The translations under genes and the position numbers were made by a program. A stretch of DNA of 39,583 nt from Candidatus Woesearchaeota archaeon (GTDB lineage: Archaea; Nanobdellota; Nanobdellia; Woesearchaeales; ARS49): positions 1-39,583 of the forward strand of contig JACQMY010000038.1 in assembly GCA_016203305.1 (NCBI GenBank), given 5' to 3'. Below, one piece after another: positions 2,255 through 39,583 of the stretch (positions within the stretch are counted from its first letter, which is position 1; each line of letters starts with the position of its first letter). Below the pieces are notes generated by a model that was not told the DNA's origin, made no database searches, and was given only the letters and a program-made list of their open reading frames with translations.

Positions 2255-2296
2255 CTACAGACTAATTACTACAAACAGGCTAATGGCCAATGGCTA
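2255..2296 (+). repeat. Heptamer array in the galT leader (six units)
   Basis: Consecutive 7-nt units CTACAGA, CTAATTA, CTACAAA, CAGGCTA, ATGGCCA, ATGGCTA. They share units (CTACAAA) and the GGCCAATGGCTA type with other arrays in the window. Confidence 0.55.
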
Positions 2297-2325
2297 AAAA
2301 GAGGCATATTGTGGGGAAGCTATAA

Positions 2326-3255
2326 ATGGGTGAACTTCGTAAAGACTACTTGTTGGATCGTTGGGTAATTATTTCCTCAGGCAGGGGTAAGCGTCCGCAT
2401 GAGATTGAAAAGCAGGAGGTTGAGCATGTTGAGAAGTGTCGCTTCTGTCCTGGCAATGAGTCTATGACTCCTCCTGAGATTGGCAGGGTTCCGAAGAATG
2501 GCAGTTGGGCTGTTAGGTGGTTTGGGAATCCGTTCGCCGCATTAAATGCAGAGGGCCAGGTTAGTCCAAAGACGGATAATCGTTTTTTCACGTTTGCAAG
2601 TAGTTATGGTGTGCAAGAGGTTATTGCGGAAACTCCCCGGCATGATAGGCAGTTGGCTGATTTGAGTGTTGAGGAGATAGAGCAGGTGTTGCACGTGTAT
2701 GCTCGCAGGATTGTAGAGCTTGAAAAGTTTCCAAATATTGAGTATGTTTGTGTTTTCAAGAATCATGGTTTGCTTGGCGGCACGTCATTAGTTCATAGTC
2801 ATTCTCAGGTTTGGGCAACTGGTGTTCTCCCATTAGAGGTTCAAGCCAAGCTTAATGCAATGGCGCGTTTTCTTCAGTGCCCGTATTGCGCGATCGTTGA
2901 AAAAGAGAGAAAGGGTAGCAGGTTGTGTTTTGAGAATGAAGCTTTTGTTGCTTTTGCTCCGTACGCGTCAAGGTTTAATTATGAGTGTTGGATTTTTCCC
3001 AAGCAGCATGTTGGACGGTTGGAGGATGTGAATTTTGCATCATTGGCAGTTGTTTTGCGTCAGGTTTTGCAAAAGATCGGCAGGTTGGACTATAATTTGT
3101 TGGTGTTTTACGGCCCTAAGGGTCGCGATTTTCATTTTCATGTTGAGGTTTGTCCTCGTGTTGGCATTTGGGCGGGCTTTGAGTTGGGAACAGGCATTAT
3201 TGTTAACTCAGTCTCTCCTGAAGACGCAGCTAAGTATTACAGAGGTGTAGCATAA
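2326..3255 (+). CDS. galT: Galactose-1-phosphate uridylyltransferase-like HIT-superfamily nucleotidyltransferase
   Basis: Would transfer a nucleotidyl group between hexose 1-phosphate and UDP-sugar, or act as an NDP-sugar phosphorylase. The 309-residue sequence begins DYLLDRWVIISSGRGKRP, has a zinc-type CRFCPGNE near residue 38 and CPYC near 187, and the active-site HSHSQVWAT (the HxHxQ signature of GalT). DFHFHVEVCPR forms the late metal/His region. In archaea such proteins usually lie beside alpha-glucan genes, and here the next gene is a debranching-type glucosidase, so a role in glucose-1-phosphate/NDP-glucose handling for glycogen is as likely as galactose use. The stop overlaps the next start by one base (TAATG), so the two genes are probably translationally coupled. 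Confidence 0.85.
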   Translation: MGELRKDYLLDRWVIISSGRGKRPHEIEKQEVEHVEKCRFCPGNESMTPPEIGRVPKNGSWAVRWFGNPFAALNAEGQVSPKTDNRFFTFASSYGVQEVIAETPRHDRQLADLSVEEIEQVLHVYARRIVELEKFPNIEYVCVFKNHGLLGGTSLVHSHSQVWATGVLPLEVQAKLNAMARFLQCPYCAIVEKERKGSRLCFENEAFVAFAPYASRFNYECWIFPKQHVGRLEDVNFASLAVVLRQVLQKIGRLDYNLLVFYGPKGRDFHFHVEVCPRVGIWAGFELGTGIIVNSVSPEDAAKYYRGVA

Positions 3256-4895
3256 TGTCTTTCATTCTTTCCAACTGTAATGGCTCTTTTGCATTGCTCG
3301 GAATTCAGAGTCGTTTTCGTGGCGTTTTTTTCGCGGACGAAAATGAGGTGTTGTCATCGATCGCTGACATCCGTGTGAAGGGTGCTGAAAAGTATGATTT
3401 TTGGAGTGCATCAAAAGGCAAGTCTACGTTCTGGTTTGCCAATAAATTACCCGCGTTTTTCCATGAGGGATCTGCTGCTGATGTTTTGCTGGATTGCAGG
3501 AAGATTTTTGACAATCGTGAGTGGGGGCGGAATTATCAGTTCGTGCAGGATGGTGATGTTTTGCTCGTGCGCTATGATAAGCGTGATGATCACAGGGAAA
3601 CCGAGACTGGTGAGTATGGTTTTTGGATTGCGTTTACTGGCTGCAAGTTTGAGAAGATTGGCGAGTGGGTTGAGGAAAAGCTTTCTTTTGATGAGCAGCG
3701 TAGGAGTCCTCCTTTTTCCAGGCATTTTTTCAGGGCTTTGCGCGCTTCTGGTTCTTTTTGTGTTGCTTTTGCCAGGGGTCGTGATGATGCTGCGTTGCTT
3801 GCAAGGCGTTCTTGGAAGAACAGGCAAAAACTGGCGAAGGAGGCAGAGGGTGTTGCAAAAGAAGTTGCAGGTAGTGGTAGTTTGTCCGAGCAGTACTCGC
3901 GTTATAGTCTTGCTTGTTTGCAGTCTGGTCAGGGTTTGTATGCTGGCTTGCCGTGGTTTTGCCAGCGGTGGGCGCGTGATGAGTTGGTTTCGGTAAAGGG
4001 CTTGTGGCTTTCTGGTCAGAAGACTTTTGCAAAGGCTGTCTTGTTTTACTGGCTTGAGCGTTTGTTGCCTGGTGGTAGGTTGCCTGGAACTTTGACGTCT
4101 ACTATTGCTGATGTTGGCTGGTTGTTTGTTCGTTTGGAGGAAGTTGCAAAGGAACTCTCTGCGCGTGAACGTTCGTTTGTGCTTGCCAAGCTTGATTATT
4201 ATTTGCAGCAGGTCAAGTTGAAGGATGGCTTGGTTACAAATAATCCGAAAGAGACGTGGATGGACAGTCTGTATCGTGGTGGTGCGAGAGTTGAGATTAA
4301 TGCGTTGTTGCTTGCTTCCTGCCGTTTGGCAAGGGTTTTGAAGAAGAAGCTTCCCTTGGAGCAGAAGCTTCGTGATGCAGCAAGAAGGGCTTTCTTGAAA
4401 AAACAGCCGAAGGGTGTTTACTTGGCTGATGGCTCTGCTGATGATGTTGTGCGGCCAAACGTGTTCATTGCCGCTTATGTTTATCCTGAGTTGTTGTCCA
4501 GGAAGGAGTGGCTGGAGTGTTTTGATTTTGCTTTGTCGAGATTGTGGTGTGATTGGGGTGGCTTGTCTACTTTGGATAAGGCTCATATGGATTTCATCGA
4601 TCAACATACTGGTGAGGATCCCAGAAGTTATCATAATGGGGATAGTTGGTTTTGGTTGAACAATCTTGCAGCTATCGTGTTGGCTCGTTTTGATGCGAAA
4701 AGGTATAAGAAGTATGTTGAGCAAATATTTGATGCGAGTGTTAAGTCATCTTCACTTGGGGTTCAGGGCCATTTTCCTGAGCTTTCAAGTGCGAAGGAGC
4801 TCAAGGCAGAGGGTTGTTTGTCTCAAGCATGGAGTGCTGCTATGACTTTAGAGTTGATTGAAGCTATCGATAAGTTATTTAAGAAAGGCGTCTAA
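3255..4895 (+). CDS. Glycogen-debranching-type amylo-alpha-1,6-glucosidase (GDE C-terminal fold)
   Basis: A 546-residue cytoplasmic protein. The second half has the (alpha/alpha)6-barrel signatures of the glycogen debranching enzyme catalytic domain: NPKETWMDSLYRGGARVEIN matches the usual TWMD...GKPVEVNALW block. YHNGDSWFWLNNLAAIV matches YH.G..WPWL, and STLDKAHMDFIDQHTGEDP lies between them. The N-terminal 230 residues would be the beta-sandwich domain seen in archaeal and bacterial GDE proteins. It would hydrolyse alpha-1,6 branch glucose from glycogen. There is no signal peptide. It is coupled to the galT-like gene, and the two make a small glucan-processing unit. A long open frame on the opposite strand (3447-4724) is a compositional shadow. 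Substrate preference is inference. Confidence 0.75.
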   Translation: MSFILSNCNGSFALLGIQSRFRGVFFADENEVLSSIADIRVKGAEKYDFWSASKGKSTFWFANKLPAFFHEGSAADVLLDCRKIFDNREWGRNYQFVQDGDVLLVRYDKRDDHRETETGEYGFWIAFTGCKFEKIGEWVEEKLSFDEQRRSPPFSRHFFRALRASGSFCVAFARGRDDAALLARRSWKNRQKLAKEAEGVAKEVAGSGSLSEQYSRYSLACLQSGQGLYAGLPWFCQRWARDELVSVKGLWLSGQKTFAKAVLFYWLERLLPGGRLPGTLTSTIADVGWLFVRLEEVAKELSARERSFVLAKLDYYLQQVKLKDGLVTNNPKETWMDSLYRGGARVEINALLLASCRLARVLKKKLPLEQKLRDAARRAFLKKQPKGVYLADGSADDVVRPNVFIAAYVYPELLSRKEWLECFDFALSRLWCDWGGLSTLDKAHMDFIDQHTGEDPRSYHNGDSWFWLNNLAAIVLARFDAKRYKKYVEQIFDASVKSSSLGVQGHFPELSSAKELKAEGCLSQAWSAAMTLELIEAIDKLFKKGV

Positions 4896-4916
4896 TATGG
4901 CACTGAGGTGACGATG

Positions 4917-5642
4917 ATGAAGAAACTTACAATTGTTGCTATTGTATTGTTGTTGCTTGCCGCGTGTGAGACGCGTATTATTATGCCGCAGCCTGGCGAG
5001 CAATCTGATACGTTGAGCGTTCAGGGCTCTAGCGAGTTTGAAGTTGCTCCTGATTTGGCAAGGGTTCGTTTTCGTGTTGAAACCAATAGTTTGACTGCGC
5101 AGGATGCTCAGAATAGGAATCGTGAAGTTAGCACTGCTGTTCGTTCTGCTTTGTTGCAGTCTGGTGTTCGTGAAAATGAGGTTGAAACAACTGGCTATCA
5201 TGTTGAAAAGATTCAGGAGTGGGATCCTGATACTAACAGGATGGTTGAGCGTGGTTATCGCGCTAGCAATTCGTTCATGGTGAGCATTAAGGACTTGTTG
5301 AGTGTTGGCAAGTTGTTGGATGTAGGAGTCCAAGCTGGTGCGAATAACGTGGAGAGCATTTCGTTCGAGCTGTCTGATGCAAGGGAGAAGGAAGTTAAGA
5401 CCGAAGCATTACACCGTGCTGCTCAGAATGCGCGTGAGAAGGCTGTTGCTTTGGCAGAAGGAGCTGCTGTTTCTCTTGGCAAGGTTCGTAGCGTTCAGGA
5501 GAATAGTTATTACGTGACGCCTTATGCGCGGTATGACGTTATGGAAAAGGTGGCAATGGGCGCGCCTAGTGCTCCAACTCCGATTGCGCCTGGCCAGGTT
5601 AAGGTTAGCGCGCAGGTTAGCGTTGCGTATGAGGTAGGATGA
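4917..5642 (+). CDS. SIMPL domain (DUF541) lipoprotein
   Basis: About 241 residues with an N-terminal signal (MKKLTIVAIVLLLLAAC) ending in a lipobox, so the mature protein is probably lipid-anchored outside the membrane. The rest is a SIMPL/DUF541 domain: VQGSSEFEVAPDLARVRFRV at the start, repeated amphipathic segments, REKEVKTEALHRAAQNAREKA, and a final QVKVSAQVSVAYEV strand. The biochemical role of the family is not established. The Shine-Dalgarno-like GAGGTGA at 4905-4911 fits the ATG at 4917 best (5-nt spacing); ATG at 4914 and GTG at 4908 are alternatives. The gene follows the debranching gene after about 20 nt and overlaps the next gene by four bases. Confidence 0.8.
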   Translation: MKKLTIVAIVLLLLAACETRIIMPQPGEQSDTLSVQGSSEFEVAPDLARVRFRVETNSLTAQDAQNRNREVSTAVRSALLQSGVRENEVETTGYHVEKIQEWDPDTNRMVERGYRASNSFMVSIKDLLSVGKLLDVGVQAGANNVESISFELSDAREKEVKTEALHRAAQNAREKAVALAEGAAVSLGKVRSVQENSYYVTPYARYDVMEKVAMGAPSAPTPIAPGQVKVSAQVSVAYEVG

Positions 5643-6523
5643 AAAGTTTTGTTTTTCTTTTTTTGTTGATTGTGGCGTGCGCGCCGCAATTGGCACCCAA
5701 ACTGGTTGAGTGTACTGAGGAGGTAAAATTGTGTCCTGACGGCTCTGCTGTTAGCAGAATTCCTCCAAGCTGTGGATTTGCGCCGTGTCCAGCACAGTCG
5801 TTCTGTAATGTTGATGATGATTGTGCTTGTGGCACGCATAAGGATACTGGCGAGTGTTTTGTTGGCAGTAAGGAGTTTGTTAATGTTGAAAAGCAGTGTC
5901 CTGACTTTTGCACTGGTATTGCCGGTCATTTGGAAACTAGGTGCGTTAAGAACGAGTGCAAAACGGTGCAAAGAACCACAAATTACACACTACCAACTAC
6001 TGACGAAGAGCCAACAGCCAACGTTCAAGACTTATCATCTGCTCACTGGCAGTGCGAGTCTGGCAAATGGGTGGGTTCTCCTGAGCAGTGTGCAGAGAAT
6101 GTGTGTGTTTCAAATAGTGACTGCCAGATTTTGGGCGTGAAGGGTGTTTGTGGTCCTTACAAGATTGTTGTTCCTAAGAGCATGCATAAGCCGCCAGTGT
6201 TTTACGAGGGCAGGTGTGGTTCTGAGAAGTGCAGCTTGGTGATGGCCATGTGTGCCGAGCCTGGAATGCTGCCTGTCATTAGGAATGTGAAGTGTGATTC
6301 TGGCAGGTGTGTTGGTGTTTACGATGTTGCTCAGAAGGAATGCGATTCTGCGCAAGATTGTGTCAAAAATTCTTGTTGTCACGCGACTGCTTGTGTTCCC
6401 AAGTTTGCCTCGCCAAGCTGTGAGGGTGTTGCCTGCACGATGGATTGTAAACCAGGAACGTTGGACTGCGGTGGCTCTTGCGGGTGTATTGATGGCAGGT
6501 GTGTTGGCGTGAAAGCGGAGTAA
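5639..6523 (+). CDS. Cysteine-rich surface lipoprotein with repeated C-x4-DC motifs
   Basis: I do not recognise a named family. The 294-residue protein has a lipoprotein signal (MKSFVFLFLLIVAC) and 35 cysteines. A recurring motif, Cys followed five residues later by Asp-Cys, appears in FCNVDDDCACG, VCVSNSDCQIL and ECDSAQDCVKNSCC, suggesting tandem small disulfide-bonded modules. Residues 113-133 form the core of the longest cysteine-free stretch between the signal peptide and the C-terminus (31 residues); they coincide with a 63-nt heptamer array, so they look like an in-frame insertion. The start overlaps the SIMPL gene stop (ATGA), so the pair is probably co-translated and exported together. 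The last 145 nt overlap the 3' end of a convergent gene. A redox or adhesive role on the cell surface would be a guess. Confidence 0.7.
   Translation: MKSFVFLFLLIVACAPQLAPKLVECTEEVKLCPDGSAVSRIPPSCGFAPCPAQSFCNVDDDCACGTHKDTGECFVGSKEFVNVEKQCPDFCTGIAGHLETRCVKNECKTVQRTTNYTLPTTDEEPTANVQDLSSAHWQCESGKWVGSPEQCAENVCVSNSDCQILGVKGVCGPYKIVVPKSMHKPPVFYEGRCGSEKCSLVMAMCAEPGMLPVIRNVKCDSGRCVGVYDVAQKECDSAQDCVKNSCCHATACVPKFASPSCEGVACTMDCKPGTLDCGGSCGCIDGRCVGVKAE
5975..6037 (+). repeat. Heptamer array inside the cysteine-rich lipoprotein gene
   Basis: Nine 7-nt steps including ACTACCA, ACTACTG, ACGAAGA, GCCAACA, GCCAACG. 63 nt is both 9 heptamers and 21 codons, so the frame is kept. It encodes a Cys-free T/P/E-rich linker. 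Confidence 0.5.
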
Positions 6524-7017
6524 GTAACGCCGTTTTGTTGCAGATGTAAAAGCGCTGATGGTTGGATCAGAAGGTGTGCTGCGTTGAGTGAGAGTATGCT
6601 TGGCCTGTCTAGGTGGGCAATTGTTTTTTCTGCGAGTTTTTTTGTTCGTTCGTGTAGTGATTCTTGTTGTTGAGGAGTTAGTTGTTCGTATGCTCGACGG
6701 GTGTCGTTGTTGATGGTTGCTGAGATGTCGTTTGTGCGCGGTGGCAGGTATCCTTTGCCCAGGTAGAGTGCGTATGATGGTAGTATGATGTCGTATGCTT
6801 CTTCAAGTGAGATGATTTGGTGTTTGCTTGCGTGGGCCGTGTGGATGAGTTGCTCTTCTATAGTTTCCGCCTCAGGCAGCACAAAGTCATCGTCAAAGAT
6901 GTTTGCGACGATAACACGCCTGTTCAGGAGTGCATTCAGTGGTTTGATTGGCGGTTGTTCCGCAACCACGGTATAACTGATAACTCCTTTGCAGTCAAGC
7001 TGCCACACGAGCGTCAT
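6379..7017 (-). CDS. Uncharacterised protein
   Basis: I do not recognise this 212-residue protein. It is mostly helical and soluble by appearance, with an acidic central region (FDDDFVLPEAETIEEQL), a segment IISLEEAYDIILPSYALYLGKGYLPPRTND, and a helical stretch RRAYEQLTPQQQESLHERTKKLAEKTI. The last 48 residues are low in predicted structure and lie antisense to the cysteine-rich lipoprotein gene, so the true protein core is probably residues 1-165. Support for expression is a TATA element (GACTTATAAG, 7041-7050) about 28 nt upstream of the ATG. The HEPN gene lies upstream on the same strand about 70 nt away. Confidence 0.5.
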   Translation of the reverse strand: MTLVWQLDCKGVISYTVVAEQPPIKPLNALLNRRVIVANIFDDDFVLPEAETIEEQLIHTAHASKHQIISLEEAYDIILPSYALYLGKGYLPPRTNDISATINNDTRRAYEQLTPQQQESLHERTKKLAEKTIAHLDRPSILSLNAAHLLIQPSALLHLQQNGVTYSAFTPTHLPSIHPQEPPQSNVPGLQSIVQATPSQLGEANLGTQAVA

Positions 7018-7040
7018 GAAAAATAAGAATGCATTTTTGT

Positions 7041-7050
7041 CTTATAAGTC
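7041..7050 (-). promoter_or_regulatory. TATA box for the uncharacterised 212-residue protein
   Basis: Minus-strand GACTTATAAG centred about 28 nt from the ATG at 7017. Confidence 0.4.
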
Positions 7051-7087
7051 TAAAGGACTTGAAGTCTGGTTTTGAGATCTATTGCGA

Positions 7088-8106: not shown

Positions 8107-8120
8107 GGAACAATTGTTCC
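8107..8120. promoter_or_regulatory. Operator site 1 of the MNT/HEPN operon
   Basis: GGAACAATTGTTCC, a perfect 14-bp palindrome directly abutting the MNT start codon and downstream of the TATA box, where a bound HTH dimer would block transcription initiation. Confidence 0.65.
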
Positions 8121-8130
8121 GATTTTGGGA

Positions 8131-8140
8131 TATTTAAACC
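8131..8140 (-). promoter_or_regulatory. TATA box of the MNT/HEPN operon
   Basis: Minus-strand GGTTTAAATA, about 28 nt from the MNT ATG. Confidence 0.55.
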
Positions 8141-8169
8141 TTTCGGTGGGAAAGCTCATAATAGCTTGA

Positions 8170-12189: not shown

Positions 12190-12800
12190 AAAGGCTTGTC
12201 GCTATTCTGCTTATCTTTTCACTATTTAGCGTTCCAGTTCTGGGATATGTCTTGAAGGAGTATAAGACTTCGGTTGTTGCCGAGCGTCGTTTGGGTGAGG
12301 AGCGCGTTACTCATTATGATCCTCGCGTGCAGATTGGCAAGATTAACACGGTTGCTCACTTGGAGCCGCACTACACTGACATTGGTGTTGGTGTTGGCCG
12401 TGGCGGTTATGCTCCTGTCTACCCTCGTGGCACTGCCAAGGTTGAGAGTTCTGAATGGCATGGTTATCCTAGAGGTAATGTCGTCATTAAAGTCAAGGAA
12501 CTTCCATACACAGAGCGCACTGGTGAAATGTTCGAGGCTTGGCTTGTTGATTTGGAGACTGGTTATCGGTTGTCTGTTGGGACGTTTTTGACTTTGCTTG
12601 GTGGTGTTGGCGAGCTGCGCTATAGTGCAAATACTTATTTTGATGCGTATGATGTTGTTGAGGTTACTGTTGAGCCGTTGGGCGATCTTGATCCGACTCC
12701 TGGAGCTGTTGTCTTGTCAGGCCCGATTGCAAAGCCGGATTATTATAACCCGCCTGCAAAGTCTTCAAAGATGTTGACGGATGTTATTAGGGATGTTTAG
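12186..12800 (+). CDS. Secreted protein with RskA-like C-terminal domain, copy 2
   Basis: About 204 residues, starting at the ATG at 12186 that overlaps the previous stop (ATGA). Signal peptide MKRLVAILLIFSLFSVPVLG. The C-terminal domain is closely similar to that of copy 1: FEAWLVDLETGYRLSVGTF followed by DVVEVTVEPLGDLDPTPGAV. The region before it, with a Gly/Tyr-rich stretch, differs between copies. Both are probably displayed outside the cell as a co-translated pair. The 3' end overlaps the convergent NAD kinase stop by four bases. Function unknown. Confidence 0.65.
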   Translation: MKRLVAILLIFSLFSVPVLGYVLKEYKTSVVAERRLGEERVTHYDPRVQIGKINTVAHLEPHYTDIGVGVGRGGYAPVYPRGTAKVESSEWHGYPRGNVVIKVKELPYTERTGEMFEAWLVDLETGYRLSVGTFLTLLGGVGELRYSANTYFDAYDVVEVTVEPLGDLDPTPGAVVLSGPIAKPDYYNPPAKSSKMLTDVIRDV

Positions 12801-13474
12801 AACTTAACAATTCTTGCTTTCTCTTTGCTTTGTTTTATCTTTACTTTGTCTCCTTCTTTCAGAATTATCATTTTTGGATTGTTGTCAGCTACAAGGTGTG
12901 CTTCTCTGCGCGTGATGGTGAGTGTGAGCGTTTTATTCGATGGTATTTGTAAGGGCTTGTGTTGTTCTGTTGTGTTGTTGAACGCTATGCCGATGCCTTT
13001 GTTTATGGTCTCTCGTGTGATGCTTTGGTAATATCCTGTGCTGCCGAATGGTGTTGCCACTACTATGCCGTCTCCGATGTATTCCTGTCGTTTGCCGTTT
13101 AATGCCAGCGTCCAGCGTAGTGCGTGTGTTGGCTCTTTGTTTCTGATTGTTATGTCGTTTGTCGCAAGTAGTTTTTTTCCGTTTATGTTTGCTTCAAGTT
13201 TTGGCATTGTTGTTATTTTATATTTTTTCTTCCTTAATAGTTCTAGTGCGTGGTCTATTGGGAGGTTGTGGCATTTTTTGCAGATTTTGCTGTATCTGAA
13301 AAGCGTCTTGGGTATTCCTGGATATTCTCTTTCTGCCCAGAGGAAGGTTCCATCTCCGCCGTAGGAAATTACAACTTCTGGTTTTTTCTCGTCGTACTCA
13401 AATCCGGAGCGTTCAATTTCTTTTTTTAGCTGGACTTTGCTTTCTGGCGTTTTTCCAAAGATCGCTATTCTCAT
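12797..13474 (-). CDS. nadK: NAD kinase
   Basis: Phosphorylates NAD to NADP. The 225-residue sequence is short but has the family signatures in order: ISYGGDGTFLWAE (GGDG phosphate-binding motif), ATNDITIRNKEP (the NE/D..I block with the catalytic-region Asn-Asp), YIGDGIVVATPFGSTGYYQS (the glycine-rich D-G..VATP.GSTAY block), and a C-terminal beta domain. It is the last cistron of the transketolase operon, about 55 nt after the zinc-ribbon microprotein. NADP supply fits the pentose-phosphate context. Confidence 0.9.
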   Translation of the reverse strand: MRIAIFGKTPESKVQLKKEIERSGFEYDEKKPEVVISYGGDGTFLWAEREYPGIPKTLFRYSKICKKCHNLPIDHALELLRKKKYKITTMPKLEANINGKKLLATNDITIRNKEPTHALRWTLALNGKRQEYIGDGIVVATPFGSTGYYQSITRETINKGIGIAFNNTTEQHKPLQIPSNKTLTLTITRREAHLVADNNPKMIILKEGDKVKIKQSKEKARIVKF

Positions 13475-13482
13475 TTCTTCAT

Positions 13483-13531
13483 CCTACTGCCTTCTTCCTA
13501 CAACCTTCGTCCTAATGCCTTCTTCCTCGTC
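13483..13531 (+). repeat. Heptamer array (seven units) before NAD kinase
   Basis: Perfect 7-nt register: CCTACTG, CCTTCTT, CCTACAA, CCTTCGT, CCTAATG, CCTTCTT, CCTCGTC. It lies between the zinc-ribbon stop and the NAD kinase start, so on the mRNA it appears as the complementary GGA/GAAGG-type repeat. Confidence 0.75.
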
Positions 13532-17785: not shown

Positions 17786-17810
17786 CGCCTTCTTAATATT
17801 AGTTCTTCCG

Positions 17811-17859
17811 CCTTCGTCCTACTTCCTAATACCTTCACCCTACTTGCTAAGTGCCAACA
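17811..17859 (+). repeat. Heptamer array (seven units) at the end of rpe
   Basis: Units CCTTCGT, CCTACTT, CCTAATA, CCTTCAC, CCTACTT, GCTAAGT, GCCAACA. It shows the CCT-type and GCCAACA-type units adjoining in the same register. The last units encode the final residues and stop codon of the epimerase. Confidence 0.7.
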
Positions 17860-18466
17860 GCCTTTTGTATGCTTGTTTCGGCTTTTCCGCTTCCTGTATC
17901 GCGCTTGTTGCAATTGCGAAATTAGCTCGTGCTCGCGCCGCTATTGCGCAGGTGTTTGTGCGTATGCCGCCGTCCACTCCGATAGTAATTGTTGGGTTGT
18001 GCGAGCGTATTTCCTTGATTTTTTTGAGTGGCTGTTTCGTGAATGCTGCGCCACTATGTCCGGGACGTACGGTCATCACGAGAACGCTGTCTGCATGGAC
18101 CAAGCTATCTTTGTGTCTTTTAACAGCAGTCTCTGGGTTGAAGGCGATGCCGCTTTTCATTCCGGTTATTCTTATGTCTTCCAGTGTTTCTGGCGCGTGT
18201 GCGCTGGCCTCTGCATGAATTATTAGCTCTTTTGCTCCTAGTTTTGAGAATGGGATGACATATTTTTCTGGATGGTACGCCATCAGGTGTACTTGTACTT
18301 CTTGTTCTGGGAAGTGTTTTTTGAGGGTTTGCAGGCCAATGGTTTTGTTGTCAACAAACTTTCCGTCCATTATGTCGAGATGTATTTTTTTGGCCCAGGA
18401 CAATGTATTCAGTTGCTGTTTTAACTCTTTAAGTGTTGTTGCCAGTACTCCTGGGATGATGTTCAT
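17840..18466 (-). CDS. rpe: Ribulose-phosphate 3-epimerase
   Basis: Interconverts ribulose 5-phosphate and xylulose 5-phosphate. A 208-residue TIM barrel with IHLDIMDGKFVDN (metal and catalytic Asp), VQVHLMAYHPEKY (His ligand), VLVMTVRPGHSGAAF (the M.V.PG..GQ loop with Gln replaced by Ala) and ITIGVDGGIRTNT (catalytic Asp and phosphate loop). The last six residues (LLALSK) and the stop come from a heptamer array, replacing the native C-terminus. It overlaps the upstream membrane gene by 4 nt and shares its transcription unit with rpiB. Confidence 0.9.
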   Translation of the reverse strand: MNIIPGVLATTLKELKQQLNTLSWAKKIHLDIMDGKFVDNKTIGLQTLKKHFPEQEVQVHLMAYHPEKYVIPFSKLGAKELIIHAEASAHAPETLEDIRITGMKSGIAFNPETAVKRHKDSLVHADSVLVMTVRPGHSGAAFTKQPLKKIKEIRSHNPTITIGVDGGIRTNTCAIAARARANFAIATSAIQEAEKPKQAYKRLLALSK

Positions 18467-26053: not shown

Positions 26054-26339
26054 GTCGTGCCCCCGGCACATTCGTTCTACGTCCTTCTTCCTTCCACCTT
26101 CGTCCTACATCCTTTTGCCTTCGTCCTTCTTCTTTCAACCTGTAGATTTTCACGTACTCACTTAGAAATACTGGCTCGATTTTGCCTGTGCCGATGAGGT
26201 GGATTAGGTGTCCGTCAACGGTTCTCCAAGTGAGGCCGGTTTTTGCAGCTATCTGGTTGACCGTGCGCTCTCCCTTGGAGAACTCGTTGAGGATCAACTG
26301 GCGTATCTCAGGGTAGGTCTTTCTCTTTTTCCGTATCAC
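26046..26339 (-). CDS. Winged-helix regulator with a heptamer-encoded C-terminal tail
   Basis: A 97-residue protein. Residues 8-66 form a helix-turn-helix plus wing (YPEIRQLILNEFSKGERTVN, QIAAKTGLTWRTVDGHLIHLIGTG, EYVKIYRL), an archaeal regulator fold. Residues 68-91 are Arg/Glu/Lys-rich, with GRR at 72-74, 79-81 and 86-88, an exact 7-residue period. This is the translation of the heptamer array at 26069-26145 (three heptamers equal seven codons). It is the first gene of the operon that carries the glycosyltransferase, amylase, module proteins, kinase and aldolase, and is a candidate regulator of it. TATA box CTTTATATAT lies 26 nt upstream. Confidence 0.75.
   Translation of the reverse strand: MIRKKRKTYPEIRQLILNEFSKGERTVNQIAAKTGLTWRTVDGHLIHLIGTGKIEPVFLSEYVKIYRLKEEGRRQKDVGRRWKEEGRRTNVPGARHE
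26069..26145 (+). repeat. Heptamer array (about eleven units) inside the wHTH gene
   Basis: Units include CCTTCTT, CCTTCCA, CCTTCGT, CCTACAT, CCTTTTG, CCTTCGT, CCTTCTT, CTTTCAA. On the coding (-) strand it is GAAGG-rich and encodes the Arg/Glu/Lys tail of the regulator. Boundaries are within 1-2 nt. Confidence 0.75.
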
Positions 26340-27004: not shown

Positions 27005-27046
27005 CTGACTTCCTTCATCCTTTGTCCTACAACCTTCTACCCTTTG
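27005..27046 (+). repeat. Heptamer array (six units) at the end of the PEBP gene
   Basis: Units CTGACTT, CCTTCAT, CCTTTGT, CCTACAA, CCTTCTA, CCCTTTG. It runs into the last codons and stop of the PEBP-family gene. Confidence 0.65.
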
Positions 27047-27590: not shown

Positions 27591-27640
27591 AAGTAGTTGG
27601 TAGTAAGTAGCCATTAGTACTACAAACTACTTTCATCCTT
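27591..27640. repeat. Inverted repeat with heptamer-like units upstream of 27685
   Basis: AAGTAGTTGGTAGTA (27591-27605) and TACTACAAACTACTT (27618-27632) pair at 14 of 15 positions around a 12-nt loop. CTACAAA also occurs in the array at 2255. It sits just upstream of the TATA box of the next gene, so it may be regulatory. Confidence 0.5.
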
Positions 27641-29081: not shown

Positions 29082-29128
29082 AGGTCACCTTTTTGAATCC
29101 AGTATTGGCGATTGTTATAAACTTTTCT

Positions 29129-29261
29129 AAGGGTGAAGGTGTAAGGTAGAAGGGTGAAGAAAGTCCACATTCTTCTTCCTTCCGCCTTCGTCCTACACCC
29201 TACGTCCTACATCCTTCGTCCTAATACCTACAACCTAATACCTTCGTCCTTCAACCTCACC
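29129..29261. repeat. Heptamer array of 19 units with an orientation switch
   Basis: Five purine-type units (AAGGGTG, AAGGTGT, AAGGTAG, AAGGGTG, AAGAAAG) are followed without loss of register by TCCACAT, TCTTCTT and twelve CCT-type units (CCTTCCG, CCTTCGT, CCTACAC, CCTACGT, CCTACAT and so on). 133 nt, exactly 19 x 7. The two arms can fold on each other. Confidence 0.8.
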
Positions 29262-31917: not shown

Positions 31918-32001
31918 TCTTCATCCTACAATCTAACACCTTCGTCCTAATGCCTTCTTCCTTCATCCTAACACCTACAACCTTCGCCCTAATGTCTTAG
32001 A
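31918..32001 (+). repeat. Heptamer array (twelve units) between convergent genes
   Basis: Twelve consecutive 7-nt units in perfect register: TCTTCAT, CCTACAA, TCTAACA, CCTTCGT, CCTAATG, CCTTCTT, CCTTCAT, CCTAACA, CCTACAA, CCTTCGC, CCTAATG, TCTTAGA. It fills the whole gap between the ATPase stop and the stop of the convergent membrane protein. Confidence 0.8.
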
Positions 32002-32002: not shown

Positions 32003-32413
32003 TTATTTTCTCTTTTTTCTTTTCTTTAGCGCTTCTAGTTCTTTTTTGAGGTCTCTTAGGTCATCGTCGTATGTTTCAACGCTGTAGCTTTTTTTGAAAT
32101 CTGTGATGCTCATCACTATTCCGCTTACGTTCACGAGGATGCCAAACGCGACTCCTAGAAGATAGTGCGTGTTGAGGTGGATCCATATTAGGTTTGCCAG
32201 ACTAAGTGCGAATAGGATGCTGCTTAGCTGGTATGCCCATGGTTCTTCTATCCAGAGGCCTAATAGTATGAGTGCTCCTGCAAGTATTCCCAGGATTATA
32301 ATGACTAGCTCTATTGCCGCTCCTGTTTTCATTCGTGTTTCCAGGAGCAACGCTGTTATCATGCTTAGCCCTAAAAGGATGGTGACGATTAGTGGTTTTG
32401 ATTGGTGTTCCAT
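32003..32413 (-). CDS. Four-pass membrane protein with a charged C-terminal coiled coil
   Basis: A 136-residue protein with about four transmembrane segments (VTILLGLSMITALLLE, AIELVIIILGILAGALILLGLWI, YQLSSILFALSLANLIWIH, YLLGVAFGILVNVSGIVMSI) and a cytoplasmic tail DDDLRDLKKELEALKKRKKRK. No family recognised. The strongly basic end suggests membrane-proximal nucleic-acid or lipid contact, which is inference. The tail ends right at a heptamer array. Confidence 0.6.
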   Translation of the reverse strand: MEHQSKPLIVTILLGLSMITALLLETRMKTGAAIELVIIILGILAGALILLGLWIEEPWAYQLSSILFALSLANLIWIHLNTHYLLGVAFGILVNVSGIVMSITDFKKSYSVETYDDDLRDLKKELEALKKRKKRK

Positions 32414-33522: not shown

Positions 33523-33543
33523 TCAATTAGCTTGCATTGTTGA

Positions 33544-33612: not shown

Positions 33613-33633
33613 TGCTTTTTTCGCGCTGGAATC

Positions 33634-34548: not shown

Positions 34549-35082
34549 CTATCGATTGAGTAATAGCCAGCCGAATAGGCTGTGTAGTCCGTCTTTGAAC
34601 TCATCAAGGATGGTTCTTCTTCGTGGTGCTCGTGTTTCAAGTACGCGGCCATAGAATTCTCGTGGGCTGAAGTAAATTGTTCTGGTCGCGTACGTTGGAT
34701 TTTTGTCTGTTTGCCTGTGAGGGATTACCTGCGCTTGCACTAGCCAAGGATGGTTTTCTTCTGCTCGCGTGTAAAGTTCAATAAACGTTCCTCGTTGTTT
34801 TTCAAAATGATCTGGATCTAGTTCGTAGAATTGTTCGTCAGTTATAGCGCGTGTTCCGACTAGTTCTTCAAGTGCTATCTTGAAATGTGTGGCGAATTGC
34901 TGGTGCTCAGGGGAGTTTGGTGTGATTGGCCTGCCAATGTAGCTTTCGCACGCGCGCGTGCTTTGTTCGAATCGTTCAGTTCTTTGTTTGCAATCGTAAA
35001 CGCATTGTGGTCCCACGCATCCGTTGCCAGAAAGCGCTGCCACAACAACTGCCGCATAGACTATTCTCATTAGTATTTGCAC
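34549..35082 (-). CDS. Lipoprotein of unknown function
   Basis: A 177-residue protein with a signal peptide (MRIVYAAVVVAALSGNGC) and a likely lipobox Cys, followed by CVYDCKQRTERFEQSTRAC with a few more cysteines. The remainder (ALEELVGTRAITDEQFYELD, PRRRTILDEFKDGLHSLFGWLLL) is unrecognised; a hydrophobic stretch ends the protein. Its stop directly abuts the trxB stop and it is divergent from the small Cys-rich peptide gene. Probably anchored outside the cell. Confidence 0.6.
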   Translation of the reverse strand: MQILMRIVYAAVVVAALSGNGCVGPQCVYDCKQRTERFEQSTRACESYIGRPITPNSPEHQQFATHFKIALEELVGTRAITDEQFYELDPDHFEKQRGTFIELYTRAEENHPWLVQAQVIPHRQTDKNPTYATRTIYFSPREFYGRVLETRAPRRRTILDEFKDGLHSLFGWLLLNR

Positions 35083-35144
35083 ATCCTGGTGTGTTCAAAA
35101 AGATTATGACACAAGTGTGTCGTTACACCCGAGTGCAGGGTTGG

Positions 35145-35156
35145 TTTTTTATATTG
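35145..35156 (+). promoter_or_regulatory. TATA box for the small Cys-rich peptide
   Basis: TTTTTTATATTG, centred 25 nt upstream of the ATG at 35176. The imperfect palindrome GACACAAGTGTGTC at about 35108-35121 lies upstream, between the divergent starts. Confidence 0.45.
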
Positions 35157-35175
35157 TTGAACGTTGTATTCGTTC

Positions 35176-35409
35176 ATGGAGCATCGTGCACATGATTTAT
35201 TCAAGATGGCATTGAGCGTTGCATTGCTCCTGCTGTTCGTTTCTGTTGTTGAGGCGAGGCGTTCTGAATCTTGTCAGTGTTTTCTTCTTCCAGGATGTTC
35301 GTTTGATGATGGAAAAGGTTACAGATATCGTGAGTGCAGGGGCAGTTGTGCTGCGTATGGTGGCTGGACTCGAGATTATAGTTGTTATCAGAATTCAACA
35401 GGAGGCTAA
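35176..35409 (+). CDS. Small secreted six-cysteine peptide
   Basis: A 77-residue precursor starting at the ATG at 35176. The N-terminal half is a signal segment (MALSVALLLLFVSVVEA), and the mature part has six cysteines in about 35 residues: ESCQCFLLPGCSFDDGKGY, RECRGSCAAYG, YSCYQNSTGG. The spacing suggests a disulfide-stabilised mini-domain. I recognise no family; an extracellular binding or antimicrobial peptide is possible but unsupported. The TATA box at 25 nt supports expression. A heptamer array follows the stop. Confidence 0.5.
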   Translation: MEHRAHDLFKMALSVALLLLFVSVVEARRSESCQCFLLPGCSFDDGKGYRYRECRGSCAAYGGWTRDYSCYQNSTGG

Positions 35410-35410
35410 A

Positions 35411-35524
35411 GGTCCAAGGTGGAAGGATGAGGAACGTCTATCTTCGCCCTTCAGCCTAATACCTACAACCTTCGCCCTAATGCCTACGTCCTAATACCTT
35501 CCGCCTTCGTCCCACAATCTAGAA
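35411..35524. repeat. Heptamer array with inverted left arm
   Basis: Left purine-type units (GGTCCAA, GGTGGAA, GGATGAG, GAACGTC) are followed by forward units TCTTCGC, CCTTCAG, CCTAATA, CCTACAA, CCTTCGC, CCTAATG, CCTACGT, CCTAATA, CCTTCCG, CCTTCGT, CCCACAA, TCTAGAA. Fills the gap between convergent stops. Confidence 0.78.
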
Positions 35525-35860
35525 TTCTTCTTTCATGACGTCTTTCAGGAGTCCTTTGCGTCGCAATAACTCGATTTGGATTGGCCTGTATTTGAAGATA
35601 ACATCTCCTTTCTCATCTCCGCCTAGTTCCCATGGCTCAATCAGGAGAATGTCGCCGTCGCGAACCCATAATTTTCGTTTTAGTCTTCCGGGGATTCGGC
35701 ATATTCGGTTTTTTCCGTCCATGCAGCGAACTTTCATCCTGCTTCCGCCTACGCGTTGCTCGCATATTCCCAGAACTTGTTTGCCGCGCGGTATGGGTGT
35801 TCTTCTTATTTCTTCTTCTTGCTGTTGTTGTTGCGCTGCAACGTCTTCTCTCTTGCTCAT
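35519..35860 (-). CDS. eif1A: Translation initiation factor aIF1A
   Basis: A 113-residue factor that binds the small ribosomal subunit A site with aIF1 and aIF2 during start selection. It has a charged N-tail (MSKREDVAAQQQQQEEE), then the OB-fold: GKQVLGICEQRVGGSRMKVRCMDGKNRICRIPGRLKRKLWVRDGDILLIEPWEL, the eIF1A signature including RIPG and the K...W..GD block. The C-terminus continues GDVIFKYRP. The ATG at 35860 is 28 nt from the TATA box; an ATG at 35908 would fall upstream of the promoter. Confidence 0.93.
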   Translation of the reverse strand: MSKREDVAAQQQQQEEEIRRTPIPRGKQVLGICEQRVGGSRMKVRCMDGKNRICRIPGRLKRKLWVRDGDILLIEPWELGGDEKGDVIFKYRPIQIELLRRKGLLKDVMKEEF

Positions 35861-35881
35861 TAGTTCGTGCTTCAGAGAGGT

Positions 35882-35894
35882 CTGTTTATAAGGC
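35882..35894 (-). promoter_or_regulatory. TATA box for the aIF1A gene
   Basis: Minus-strand GCCTTATAAACAG, 28 nt from the ATG at 35860. Confidence 0.55.
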
Positions 35895-35919
35895 TTTCTA
35901 GATGACAAATAGGTGTGGA

Positions 35920-36729
35920 CTATTTCAAACTCAAATTATGTAGCGTGCATAGTTTTGTGAATCTTTTATTCATTGCCTTGCGTGCCAAAGTGTATGCTTT
36001 GGTGTGGTTTTTGAATTTTTGTTTTGCGTGCTGGGTTGCTTCCTTGATTAGGTAGCTTTTGTTGCTTACGAGGAATTTGAAGTATTTCCATGCGAGCTTC
36101 ATCTTGTCGAATATGCTTCTTTTGTGTGGGTTGAGTGCTTCTCTTAGTATGCTGAACTGGCCGTACATGTTTGCCGCTTTTTCTTGGTTGAGGTATTGTG
36201 TGAGGTCGAAGTTTTTGAAGTGTTGTAGCGCTTCAAGCACTTCTTGTTGGTTTCCGCCGAAGAACGTTGTTAGGTGGTATGCGATTTTGTGTACGTGTTT
36301 GTCGCGGAGTCTTTTTTTTGCTCTCTCGGTAACCGTGATAATGTCTGGTTGTTTTTCTACTAGTTGGCAGGTCATCACGTGATCGAGGAAATAGTGGCCT
36401 TCTTCTGGGAAGCTTTGTCCGTTGTAGAGTTTGAGTATTTCTTCTGCGTGGCTGGTGTTTGGTGTAACGTAGTGTTTGTCCAGGGTTTTGTCCATTTCTT
36501 CATGCATTGCCATGCCTAGTGCTAATGGTGCATATTTTGGGTCTGTTTTGACGAGGTATTTTAGGAATGCTTCTGCTTTCCAGTGGAGTCCTTTTACCAC
36601 TCCGAATTCTTCTAAGTCTGTTAAAACGCTGCCTATGGCGAATAGTGCGAATGCTCTGCTTTCTTTGTTGAGTTTGTATCGTTCAAAGAGTTTTTTGCAA
36701 CTGTGTATGTGTAGTGCTGGCGCTGGCAT
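35920..36729 (-). CDS. Zinc-dependent phospholipase C-like protein
   Basis: A 269-residue helical protein. The N-terminus MPAPALHIHSCKKLF, the block FAIGSVLTDLEEFG with GLHWKAEAFLKYL, and YAPLALGMAMHEEMDKTLDKHYV have the spaced His/Asp pattern of the zinc-dependent phospholipase C/S1-P1 nuclease-like fold. No signal peptide is visible, unlike secreted phospholipases, so substrate and location are uncertain. The C-terminal half (IFDKMKLAWKYFKFLVSNKSYLIKEATQH) is basic. A Shine-Dalgarno-like GGGGAG precedes the ATG. Family call is tentative. Confidence 0.45.
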   Translation of the reverse strand: MPAPALHIHSCKKLFERYKLNKESRAFALFAIGSVLTDLEEFGVVKGLHWKAEAFLKYLVKTDPKYAPLALGMAMHEEMDKTLDKHYVTPNTSHAEEILKLYNGQSFPEEGHYFLDHVMTCQLVEKQPDIITVTERAKKRLRDKHVHKIAYHLTTFFGGNQQEVLEALQHFKNFDLTQYLNQEKAANMYGQFSILREALNPHKRSIFDKMKLAWKYFKFLVSNKSYLIKEATQHAKQKFKNHTKAYTLARKAMNKRFTKLCTLHNLSLK

Positions 36730-36775
36730 GTTCTCCCCACTGGACTTTTGTGCACGGAGAGCTTAAAAACCTTTT

Positions 36776-36817
36776 GGCTATTTAGTGGTAGCTAAAGGCG
36801 AATAGCCAATGGCCAAT
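36776..36817 (+). repeat. Heptamer array (six units) before the exonuclease gene
   Basis: Units GGCTATT, TAGTGGT, AGCTAAA, GGCGAAT, AGCCAAT, GGCCAAT, ending just before the ATG at 36822. The GGCCAAT/AGCCAAT type is also present in the galT leader. Confidence 0.5.
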
Positions 36818-36821
36818 TGAC

Positions 36822-37568
36822 ATGATCCAGAACTCCTTCATCCTGCTTCCGGGTATTCGTCAGCGTTCTGAACAGCGTTTGTGGCAGGAAGTTGATGGTT
36901 GGGATTCTTTTTTGTCAGCATCTTGTGTTAGGGGTGTTAGCAGTGCTAGAAAGGAGCGTTTTGACTTGCATTTGCGCGATGCAAAGCTTCATTTGAAAGA
37001 AGGGGATTCGAAGTTTTTCGCCATGCAGGTTCCTTTTTCTGAGCAGTGGCGTTTATGGCAGACTTTCAAGGAAGAGGCTTGTTTTCTTGACATAGAAACC
37101 AACGGTTACTATTCCGGCATAACTGTTGTTGGCATTAGCGATGGGGTTGAGGTGCATTCTTTTGTGCGTGGCTTTAATTTGGATCGTTCTTTGTTGATTA
37201 AAGAATTGTCAAAGTACAAGTTGCTTGTTACGTTTAATGGCGCTTCGTTTGATCTTCCTGTTATTGAACGGTTTTTTGGCTTTCGTCCTTCTGTTCCTCA
37301 TGTTGATTTGAGGTTTGTTTGTCAGAAGCTGGGCATAGTTGGCGGGTTGAAATCTATTGAAAAGCAACTTTGCATTCGTCGTCGTGCAGAGGTTGAGGGT
37401 TTATCTGGTGAGGATGCTGTGTACTTATGGGAGCAGTGGCGTTCAACTGGTGATCGTGACCATTTGGACAGGTTGGTCTGGTACAATGAGGAGGACGTGT
37501 TGAATCTTTTGCCGTTGGCAAAGAAGATGATTCCTGAGTTGTGGGCAAAAATAAGGATGAAGGTATAA
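36822..37568 (+). CDS. RNase H-fold (YprB-like) 3'-5' exonuclease
   Basis: A 248-residue protein. Catalytic blocks of the DEDD exonuclease fold are visible: CFLDIETNGYYSGITVVGI (Asp90, Glu92), LLVTFNGASFDLPVIERFFG (second Asp), VPHVDLRFVCQKLG and WYNEEDVLNLLPLAKK (final Asp). This is the domain called RNase H-like/YprB in archaea and bacteria, which acts on nucleic acid 3' ends. The last residues (KIRMKV) and stop are encoded by a heptamer array. The gene follows its own heptamer-containing leader. Confidence 0.8.
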   Translation: MIQNSFILLPGIRQRSEQRLWQEVDGWDSFLSASCVRGVSSARKERFDLHLRDAKLHLKEGDSKFFAMQVPFSEQWRLWQTFKEEACFLDIETNGYYSGITVVGISDGVEVHSFVRGFNLDRSLLIKELSKYKLLVTFNGASFDLPVIERFFGFRPSVPHVDLRFVCQKLGIVGGLKSIEKQLCIRRRAEVEGLSGEDAVYLWEQWRSTGDRDHLDRLVWYNEEDVLNLLPLAKKMIPELWAKIRMKV

Positions 37569-37657
37569 GGCGGAAGGTCGAAGAACTTTTGTCTTCACTC
37601 CTCTTCCACCTTCATCCTACAACCTAGTACCTACGCCCTAATACATTCACACTATGG
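37555..37657. repeat. Heptamer array with inverted left arm between convergent stops
   Basis: Purine units GGATGAA, GGTATAA, GGCGGAA, GGTCGAA, a short centre, then CCTTCAT, CCTACAA, CCTAGTA, CCTACGC, CCTAATA, CATTCAC. The left arm encodes the exonuclease C-terminus and stop; the right arm reaches the stop of the opposite gene. Confidence 0.75.
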
Positions 37658-37939
37658 TATCGGTACGTTTTGAACGGTCTGGTTGATTGTGTGTACGACA
37701 TAGCCGACTGCAGGGTTGATGCCAAAGAGGTCTTGTCCGGTGAAGACGCTCAAAACAATGCCTGCTGCTACTAGGAAGAGTCCCAGTGAGACTAGGAATC
37801 GTGCTGCTCGTATGATGAGTTTGAGCGCTACTATTGCTATGAAAATCATTCCGATGATGATTAGTACTTCAGGTATTCCCATTATTGGCTTTAAAACAAC
37901 TTTACTATATCTCTTTTGCGGTTCTTTAGTAAGCGACAT
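37652..37939 (-). CDS. Small two-pass membrane protein
   Basis: A 95-residue protein with a basic N-terminus (KEPQKRYSKVVLKP) and two hydrophobic segments (IMGIPEVLIIIGMIFIAIVALKLI, FLVSLGLFLVAAGIVLSVFTG). No family recognised. It ends in a heptamer array and starts 138 nt from the divergent surface-protein gene, with a 12-bp inverted repeat in between. Confidence 0.55.
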   Translation of the reverse strand: MSLTKEPQKRYSKVVLKPIMGIPEVLIIIGMIFIAIVALKLIIRAARFLVSLGLFLVAAGIVLSVFTGQDLFGINPAVGYVVHTINQTVQNVPIP

Positions 37940-37974
37940 AAGTGAGTTATATCATTCGATCGCTTGCTAAGGTT

Positions 37975-38014
37975 TGCCAGACATAACATTTCTAGGTCTT
38001 ATTTATGTCTGGCA
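37975..38014. promoter_or_regulatory. 12-bp perfect inverted repeat in a divergent promoter region
   Basis: TGCCAGACATAA (37975-37986) and TTATGTCTGGCA (38003-38014) are exact reverse complements separated by 16 nt. They lie between divergent starts, so an operator fits better than a terminator. Confidence 0.5.
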
Positions 38015-38040
38015 TTATTCACTCTCGTTTCTTTAAAAAG

Positions 38041-38050
38041 GTTTAAATAC
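38041..38050 (+). promoter_or_regulatory. TATA box for the LamG surface protein
   Basis: GTTTAAATAC, about 31 nt upstream of the ATG at 38077. Confidence 0.5.
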
Positions 38051-38076
38051 TCAAAAAGGGTTTTTTGTTTGGGATT

Positions 38077-39583
38077 ATGAAAAAAGGGGAAATAGTGAAG
38101 CCCTTGGTAGGGATGCTGTTAGTCATAGTCCTTGCGTTCTTGTTTTTGATTGTTCCTTTGAAGAGTCCTACTGGCTTGCAGACGGCTGATCAGCCTCCTT
38201 TGTCTGCAGATGCATATTATGTTGTGGACGGTTCTTTTACAGTAGATTTATTGCAATACTTTTCTGGTCCAGAAGGCCAGTCGTTGACTTTTGTGGTGGA
38301 AGATGCAGCAGTAGTGCTCGATGGTAGTATGTTGACATTTACTCCTCCTGTTGGTTTTTCTGGTGATTATGTTGTGAATATTCAAGTGAGTGATGGTGTT
38401 AATACTGTATACAAGCCAATTACGTTCGTCGTACAACCTACGTCCTACGTCATACAACCTACTGGCCAACAGCCAACAGCCGATAGCCAAGAGTTGCGTG
38501 GCCAACTGCAAACTACTGATCAACAAACAGAAGAGTCAACCGCGCTAGAACTCACACCAAGCGCACCTGCAAGTGAGCCAACAATTTCTGACATAACGAT
38601 TTCTGCTGTTCCAACGCATGACGCGCCGATCCTGAACAGTACTGATGGTTCTGGCGCCACTGGCAATAACGCTTCAACAAGTGAGAATTTGACTGTTTTT
38701 GTCATTAACGCGACTGATGCAGACGGAGACGCGGTACAAAACATTACGGACTGGAGACTCAACGGACAGTCAATCGCAGTTCTAAACATGCCTTTTGAGA
38801 CGAATGTCACCGTGACGACCGCAGGCGCGGTCAGGGATTATGGTATGGGGGCGAATAATGGTACGTTGGGTGGCGGAACTGCCGCGTCTGTACCTCTTTG
38901 GAATGCTGCGGGACAGGTCGGTGGGGCATATACGTTTGATGGGGTTAATGATTTCATTGAGACAAACGCTGCTGCAGGTAATTTCACCGCTGCTTCATCA
39001 TTCTCGGTTGAGGCGTGGGTTAATTCGACGCTTGATAATGCCGACAGAGTAGTGGTTGGTAAAGTGGCAGGTGGTGATGTTGGTTGGCATCTTAGGATCA
39101 CCATTCCGAATGCAGCTAGGTTTATTTTGGCCAGCAGCGGTGGTGTTAACAAGGGATCAGATACTGCTGTGCTTACTGCAGGGTATCACCACCTCGTTGG
39201 CACATGGGATGGAGCGACTGCGAGGACGTATCTTGATGGCGCGCTCAGTTCTTCCCCGTTTAGCAGTGGTGTACCGGGCACGATCACGAATACGGTGACG
39301 CTCAAGGTTGGCAAGGATGATAGTTTGCCTGGCTACTTCAGAGGGACAATCGATGAAGTCAGAGTTTACAATAGAAGCTTATCAGCAACACAAATACGAC
39401 AGCTTTTCCTTGATGGCAATGGTTCTCGTCATCCTGTGACTTTTGTTGCTAATGAAACAGCTGTTGGTGATGTTTGGAGTGTTGCTGTTACTCCGAATGA
39501 TAATCAGAATGCGAGTGATGGTAGTACTGTTTTGAGTAATAATGTTACGATTTTGAATGCTGATCCGAGTATTGCTCAGGTCA
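38077..39583 (+). CDS. LamG-domain surface protein, 3' part beyond window
   Basis: Open to the end of the window (at least 502 residues). A signal/TM segment (residues about 10-27, VGMLLVIVLAFLFLIVPL) precedes a cadherin/Big-like beta domain (about 43-112, ending FTPPVGFSGDYVVNIQVSDG). Residues 116-143 are a Pro/Thr/Gln linker encoded by a heptamer array, and about 170-250 include TVFVINATDADGDAVQNITDW. Residues about 290-440 are a LamG/concanavalin-like domain (TFDGVNDFIET, SFSVEAWVNSTL, GTWDGATARTYLDG, GTIDEVRVYNRSLSATQI). It would be a large extracellular adhesin or glycan-binding protein. Repeated units probably continue downstream. Confidence 0.8.
   Translation, partial: MKKGEIVKPLVGMLLVIVLAFLFLIVPLKSPTGLQTADQPPLSADAYYVVDGSFTVDLLQYFSGPEGQSLTFVVEDAAVVLDGSMLTFTPPVGFSGDYVVNIQVSDGVNTVYKPITFVVQPTSYVIQPTGQQPTADSQELRGQLQTTDQQTEESTALELTPSAPASEPTISDITISAVPTHDAPILNSTDGSGATGNNASTSENLTVFVINATDADGDAVQNITDWRLNGQSIAVLNMPFETNVTVTTAGAVRDYGMGANNGTLGGGTAASVPLWNAAGQVGGAYTFDGVNDFIETNAAAGNFTAASSFSVEAWVNSTLDNADRVVVGKVAGGDVGWHLRITIPNAARFILASSGGVNKGSDTAVLTAGYHHLVGTWDGATARTYLDGALSSSPFSSGVPGTITNTVTLKVGKDDSLPGYFRGTIDEVRVYNRSLSATQIRQLFLDGNGSRHPVTFVANETAVGDVWSVAVTPNDNQNASDGSTVLSNNVTILNADPSIAQV
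38423..38506 (+). repeat. Heptamer array (twelve units) inside the LamG protein gene
   Basis: CGTTCGT, CGTACAA, CCTACGT, CCTACGT, CATACAA, CCTACTG, GCCAACA, GCCAACA, GCCGATA, GCCAAGA, GTTGCGT, GGCCAAC. 84 nt is 12 heptamers and 28 codons, so the frame is preserved. CCT-type and GCCAACA-type units meet in register. Confidence 0.75.

Follow-up and report, generated by a model that had tools for sequence, protein, structure and literature searches.

For decades, heptanucleotide tandem repeats have been seen in bacteria with no mechanism to account for them; they are on record from cyanobacteria, Xanthomonas, and Beggiatoaceae (PMC4692102, PMC4679880). One survey found them to be the most frequent class of long repeat in the majority of genomes, and the stretch contacted by polymerase has been proposed to measure 7 nt (Mrazek 2007, as summarised in PMC4679880). 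The GGGNATC-type heptamers of Xanthomonas and Nostoc are reported to use both strands equally, without a leading or lagging preference; the Xanthomonas form, (GGGANTN)n, comprises ~185 intergenic sets per genome that have heterogeneous units, nearby inverted pairs, and different genes in sister species (PMC4692102). The TAACTGA repeats of Beggiatoaceae, Cyanobacteria, and Bacteroidetes, most of them perfect, sit immediately before start codons, and a translational role has been proposed for them; the passages found do not take up replication polarity (PMC4679880).

Here we describe degenerate heptamer arrays in a 39,583-nt stretch of DNA (the window) and in the genome to which it belongs (G000; 1.13 Mb in 40 contigs). 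The host is archaeal by S9 and endonuclease dU matches, the S9 scores lying just under the curated NCBIfam cut-offs; archaeal SSU rRNA was not found in the bin. Heptanucleotide repeats being familiar from bacteria (STRR, LSSR), the kind of element is known, and the remark in the first-pass annotation of the window that it knew of no described element like this is not supported. Moreover, many bacterial phyla have CCTTCNN arrays, most often containing long runs of identical units (this pattern scan of other genomes excluded G000). Like cyanobacterial STRR and bacterial 7-nt LSSR, the G000 arrays have a 7-nt period and are dispersed, intergenic, sporadic between relatives, and of several families per genome. 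Unlike these, they almost never have identical neighbours (12 of 1905 pairs), lie nearly absolutely on the G-rich strand, and belong to an archaeon as judged by S9. They resemble the Xanthomonas sets in the features listed above, but differ from the GGGNATC-type repeats, which use both strands, consist mainly of four units, and have G-quadruplex tracts (PMC4692102). The ACTGANN units of the congener G001, which include ACTGATA, are of the same heptamer class as TAACTGA, whose mostly perfect, start-codon-proximal copies set it apart. The tandem repeats of Borgs are likewise archaeal, genome-wide, and fast-evolving, with a composition bias tied to the replichore strand, but they are perfect, have many unit lengths, are each unique, lie about half in ORFs, and belong to giant extrachromosomal elements (PMC9879509). 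REP/BIME elements with RAYT are also short, dispersed, and intergenic, with hairpins; G000 has no RAYT over the cut-off, its elements have heptamer tails, and most of the arrays have no hairpin.

The window contains 36 matches to four CCT at exact 7-nt spacing, and none was found in 100 dinucleotide-preserving shuffles. Genome-wide, this pattern gave 757 matches versus 9 for a reversed-pattern control. The excess at lag 7 that had been proposed as a check extends genome-wide: CCT-CCT pairs on the G-rich strand number 1276 at lag 7, 1073 at lag 14, 866 at lag 21, and 691 at lag 28, against ~20-50 (about 30) at other lags. Five CCT in phase occur 508 times in G000 and never in 58 relatives, including one congener. 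Almost the whole genome was joined from stretches (1,131,376 bases). A model of three unit classes and seven positions, trained on G000 and run on the reversed genome as a control, identified 233 arrays scoring >22 (31 in the control), 202 scoring >25 (18), and 164 scoring >30 (5); 163 arrays have at least five CCT units. Most arrays are intergenic, and the 7-nt period is strict at many dispersed loci. Contigs C7, C10, C11, C14, and C27 have an end within an array or no more than ~100 bp from one; the assembly is therefore probably interrupted by arrays, whose true number may be higher.

The first-pass annotation listed about 13 loci in the window as one family in which units of a second type sit next to the first type without a change of register. 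Nine of them (13483, 17811, 26069, 27005, 29129, 31918, 35411, 37555, and 38423) are significant under the unit model, and the other four (2255, 5975, 27591, and 36776) fall below its threshold; there the 7-nt phase is loose, and the sequence is made up of inverted repeats or of a small number of ACTAC/GCCAA-type units (Table 1). A single dispersed family with two or more unit types in one register is supported genome-wide, and the model places the second unit type in register at 17853-17859 and 38465-38492. The heptamer-like runs within ORFs, at 5975-6023 and 38437-38492, read as low-complexity protein segments, and are possible array-derived insertions in genes.

Table 1. Heptamer arrays, hairpin arms, and inverted repeats in the window (contig C23 of G000).
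Feature	Position	Strand	Evidence	Context
Weak B/C-like run	2255..2296	+	Read in sequence; below model threshold	Between galT promoter and start
Weak B/C-type run (ACTACCA ACTACTG ... GCCAACA GCCAACG)	5975..6023	+	Read in sequence; below model threshold	Inside ORF 5639-6523
A-type array (TCTTCAT CCTACTG CCTTCTT CCTACAA CCTTCGT CCTAATG CCTTCTT CCT)	13476..13527	+	Unit-model score 39.7; pattern matches	Abuts start of minus-strand gene 12797-13474
A-type array, then C-type units (GCTAAGT GCCAACA)	17804..17859	+	Score 35.6	Last units enter 3' end of minus-strand gene 17840-18466; array unit contains stop TAG
A-type array, 10 units	26069..26138	+	Score 45.8	Upstream of minus-strand glycosyltransferase gene
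A-type array, short, 4 units	27012..27039	+	Score 21.3	Between convergent ORFs
B-type inverted repeat (GTAGT arm / TAGTACTA / ACTAC arm)	27591..27632	.	DNA fold z -3.65; same head type at ~10 other places	Upstream of plus-strand gene 27679/27685-28230
AGG arm	29126..29160	-	Fold z -3.48	5' half of hairpin head of array 29164..29254
A-type array, 13 units	29164..29254	+	Score 70.7	Upstream of Ca-ATPase gene
A-type array, 12 units	31918..32001	+	Score 61.1	Occupies whole gap from Ca-ATPase stop to stop of minus-strand gene 32003-32413
AGG arm	35399..35426	-	Weak fold, z -0.19	Upstream of array 35441..35517
A-type array, 11 units	35441..35517	+	Score 59.5	Ends at stop codon of minus-strand gene 35519-35908
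C-type inverted repeat (GGCTATT ... AATAGCC GGCCAAT)	36776..36817	.	Read in sequence; fold not significant, z -1.23	Just upstream of gene 36822-37568
AGG arm (AAGGATGAAGGTATAAGGCGGAAGGTCGAAGA), copy of genome-wide conserved head	37550..37584	-	23-head alignment; fold z -4.34
A-type array, 7 units	37602..37650	+	Score 31.0	After head 37550..37584
Composite array, A-type then C-type units (CCTACTG GCCAACA GCCAACA)	38437..38492	+	Score 26.5	Inside ORF 38077-39582

Each unit in G000 is composed of a conserved 5-nt core and a free 2-nt tail. The three classes, A (CCTWM+NN), B (ACTAC+NN), and C (GCCAA/GCTAA+NN), share the layout N-C-Y-W-M-N-N; position 2 is C in 97-98% of units of every class, and the last two positions are the freest. 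Arrays start with T-first units, TCTTCNN holding the first place in 95 of 137, and within them CCTTC prevails early and CCTA late. Neighbouring units are alike at positions 1, 3, 4, and 5 and unlike at positions 6 and 7. Among 1905 neighbouring pairs, 12 are identical versus 45 in within-array shuffles. When tails are dealt anew among same-core neighbours, 90 pairs with identical tails are expected and 12 are seen, a depletion of about sevenfold; pairs with one tail mismatch are also fewer than expected (132 versus 195), and those with two mismatches more numerous (349 versus 207). Units at distance 2 or 3 show no depletion of identical units. A depletion graded by the number of tail mismatches would be expected if slippage removes matching neighbours, and stability selection would look alike. 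The arrays had been set apart from slippage-made microsatellites and from CRISPRs, and both distinctions hold: identical neighbours are depleted and tail positions differ, and a 7-nt period with a restricted unit vocabulary is unlike constant repeats of tens of bases with unique spacers.

Nearly all arrays lie on the G-rich strand, defined by the positive GC skew of their own contig: 161 of the 163 arrays with at least five CCT units do so, as do 230/233 of those scoring >22 and 201/202 of those scoring >25. The bias is weaker for B-type (16:4) and C-type (33:4) runs. Judged from GC skew, this is presumably the leading strand. Arrays are 40% C and 6% G on a strand with otherwise more G than C, so the polarity is not compositional. 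The earlier claim that CCT is always on the plus strand is true of the main window arrays, but the three AGG arms in Table 1, which are the upstream halves of hairpin heads, are short and reverse-oriented. Its companion claim, that polarity ignores flanking genes, applies across G000, where the orientations of genes beside arrays are the same as at gaps in general. A leading-strand excess of cores was looked for in the coding DNA of G000 and none was found, and a KOPS/Chi-like signal was rejected on these grounds. Full-text literature searches, which covered few subscription papers, turned up no report of such arrays in these archaea, nor of any heptamer arrays with a polarity relative to replication. 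The nearly absolute polarity and the rule against identical neighbours appear to be new, and their combination points to a replication-linked DNA process and not to a gene-control signal.

Some arrays have recurrent hairpin heads. About 23 open with a conserved arm like GAGGTTGAAGGTATAAGGTGGAAGGATGAAGA, which faces the array as an inverted repeat in an alignment of the 23 heads; other recurring heads are of the GTAGT type (~10) or TTAGTACTAAT (4), and most arrays have none. Two stretches of the window, 29127-29195 and 37551-37625, gave better folds than any of 200 shuffles. On contigs C9, C19, C24, and C27, a recurrent palindromic CGGAAATTGAAAATTTCCGACATGTAGT or its partner adjoins B-type heads. 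Arrays also have runs of units in common: 29, 17, and 9 shared runs of five, six, and seven units are found versus 7.6, 2.0, and 0.5 under a simple first-order Markov model, a modest signal against a simple null. The recurrent heads and shared runs are signs of copying between loci.

Towards plus-strand genes, arrays commonly end ~30-50 bp or more short of the start codon, a distance that can accommodate a promoter, and towards the stop codons of opposite-strand genes they run right up to the stop. Of 98 cases, 30 have their stop codon TAG formed by the final unit, CCTAnnn. TAG accounts for 54 of the 74 stops that lie inside an array or <12 bp from one, compared with 25% genome-wide. Truncation of genes by arrays was rejected, as 19 of 21 genes that end inside arrays align to within 5 aa of the C-terminus of their G001 orthologues. 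The stop codons of G000 and G001 are too diverged to distinguish a TAG that seeded an array from an array that replaced a stop.

Comparison with relatives shows that the arrays are not conserved in place. G001 has a median 59% amino-acid identity to G000 over matches, and its 26 syntenic gaps corresponding to array-bearing gaps of G000 have either no array or other heptamers (e.g., TCTGATA ACTGACG TCTGATA); the presence/absence check thus did not recover the same array at orthologous loci. In 0.39 Mb of G001, 21 arrays were found, which lie 20:1 on the G-rich strand and several of which open with a T-first unit; the reversed control gave none. A distant relative from another family, G072, has ACTTC+NN arrays that reach 41 units, with a core that hardly varies, a free tail, and long identical unit runs. 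Their strand is consistent per contig (p about 7e-5) and is mostly the G-poor one. The polarity therefore has no universal sign, and its link to a particular parental strand is weak. The search pattern had no forward match in G029 and G071, of the same genus as G072; judged from the sequences, this is an apparent second case of sudden lineage-specific amplification. Arrays are also present in G008, G002, and G096, and in another family of the order, genome G189 has a CCAAATC/CCAAATT heptamer array (contig C23, 3554-3662). A viral source was rejected, the only IMG/VR match being a perfect CCTAATA repeat.

We tentatively prefer, among the possible readings, that these are lineage-specific degenerate heptamer arrays made and spread by replication-linked copying, with one polarity relative to the fork. 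At forks, when pyrimidine-rich DNA of one polarity is exposed in single-stranded form, segments of existing arrays would be copied ectopically by template switching that would need only the 5-nt core as microhomology, and copying in this state would fix the orientation; occasional fold-back copying could give rise to the inverted heads. Slippage would delete perfect tandem duplicates, leaving mainly arrays whose neighbours differ in their tails, and core units would keep being copied because only core-matching units re-anneal. Counted for this reading are the polarity, which is linked neither to gene orientation nor to strand composition, the core/tail rule, the shared runs, the 23 heads, the lack of a core excess in leading-strand coding DNA, and a fast turnover, which follows from the absence or different class of arrays at the syntenic gaps of G001. 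Counted against it are the sign in G072, the merging of TAG stops with arrays, which simple insertion does not explain, and the fact that binding-site selection also gives conserved cores. Also counted against it is that no birth, insertion, or unit-gain event was seen in the genomes compared, which are not close strains. More than 200 natural copies that obey two sharp rules (polarity with the fork, and a kept core with a changed tail), together with a congener in which another core has the same polarity, open the way to testing whether replication produces the arrays, whether they are shielded from slippage, or whether a protein reads them.

Reading by a protein, the main rival, is conceivable but rather doubtful. 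Each heptad would be the site for one subunit of an ssDNA-binding protein or primase-like factor, with five contacted and two spacer bases; the polarity would come from only one template strand being exposed at the fork, and the tails would alternate to stop slippage. The core/tail organisation, the near-absolute polarity, and the use of a different core with the same layout in each species fit such sites, and CspB is reported to bind heptamer repeats with one protein per heptamer (PMC4679880). However, the sites are not conserved between congeners, single cores in coding DNA lack polarity, the sign differs in G072, and no candidate protein emerged. Spacing is also irregular (CV 1.14 versus 1.03 for random gaps), and a regular spacing of arrays was tested and not found. 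We regard as unlikely a functional replication-polar DNA code, in which a 5-base word in every 7 bases is read by an oligomeric factor on the exposed fork template, differing tails stop slippage, and the word has been rewritten independently in related archaeal lineages.

Ordinary heptanucleotide simple-sequence repeats, generated by polymerase slippage with orientation-dependent stability and later decayed by point mutation, are a reading that we disfavour for G000 and consider distinctly improbable. Among long repeats, heptamers are the class that many bacteria favour (Mrazek 2007, as summarised in PMC4679880), long identical runs exist in G072 and in many bacteria, and occurrence is sporadic and lineage-specific, all as slippage would have it. 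Yet in G000 the tails of neighbours actively differ, array starts have their own grammar with TCTTCNN first, and mutational decay would strike all seven positions, including the nearly invariant position 2.

A mobile hairpin element of the REP/IS200 type, carrying heptamer tails and moved by a Y1 transposase on single-stranded DNA, is very unlikely. Inverted heads at many loci, one Y1 gene in G000, and the strand bias expected for single-stranded transposition agree with it, but most arrays have no head, and by score the protein belongs to IS200/IS605 (100.9 bits against a cut-off of 55), its REP-associated score (20.9) falling below the cut-off of 80. Y1 was not found in G001, G008, G002, and G096, which all have arrays, and is present in G004, G010, G012, and G013, where the array pattern gives no match. 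Neither the type of Y1 nor its distribution among 20 relatives, where it does not follow the arrays, fits mobilisation by RAYT/REP, which is in effect refuted as a general cause. The G000 gene (L120, 1465-1929 on contig C4) is a single stand-alone IS200/IS605-type TnpA gene with no accompanying array.

An RNA element (3'-end, terminator, or regulator), a 3'-end role having been among the initial suggestions, would fit arrays that directly follow stop codons or precede promoters, but it is hardly credible because array orientation ignores transcription; no Rfam family matched in the window. Reverse transcriptases were also dismissed as a source of arrays, since no link to arrays was seen for the two that G000 encodes. 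These genes (L121, 1192-2385 on contig C16, and L122, 1303-2370 on contig C34) each have an ORF upstream and contain the motif LGNLTSQ, which we take to be associated with diversity-generating retroelements, and on this basis the two loci look like candidate members of that group.
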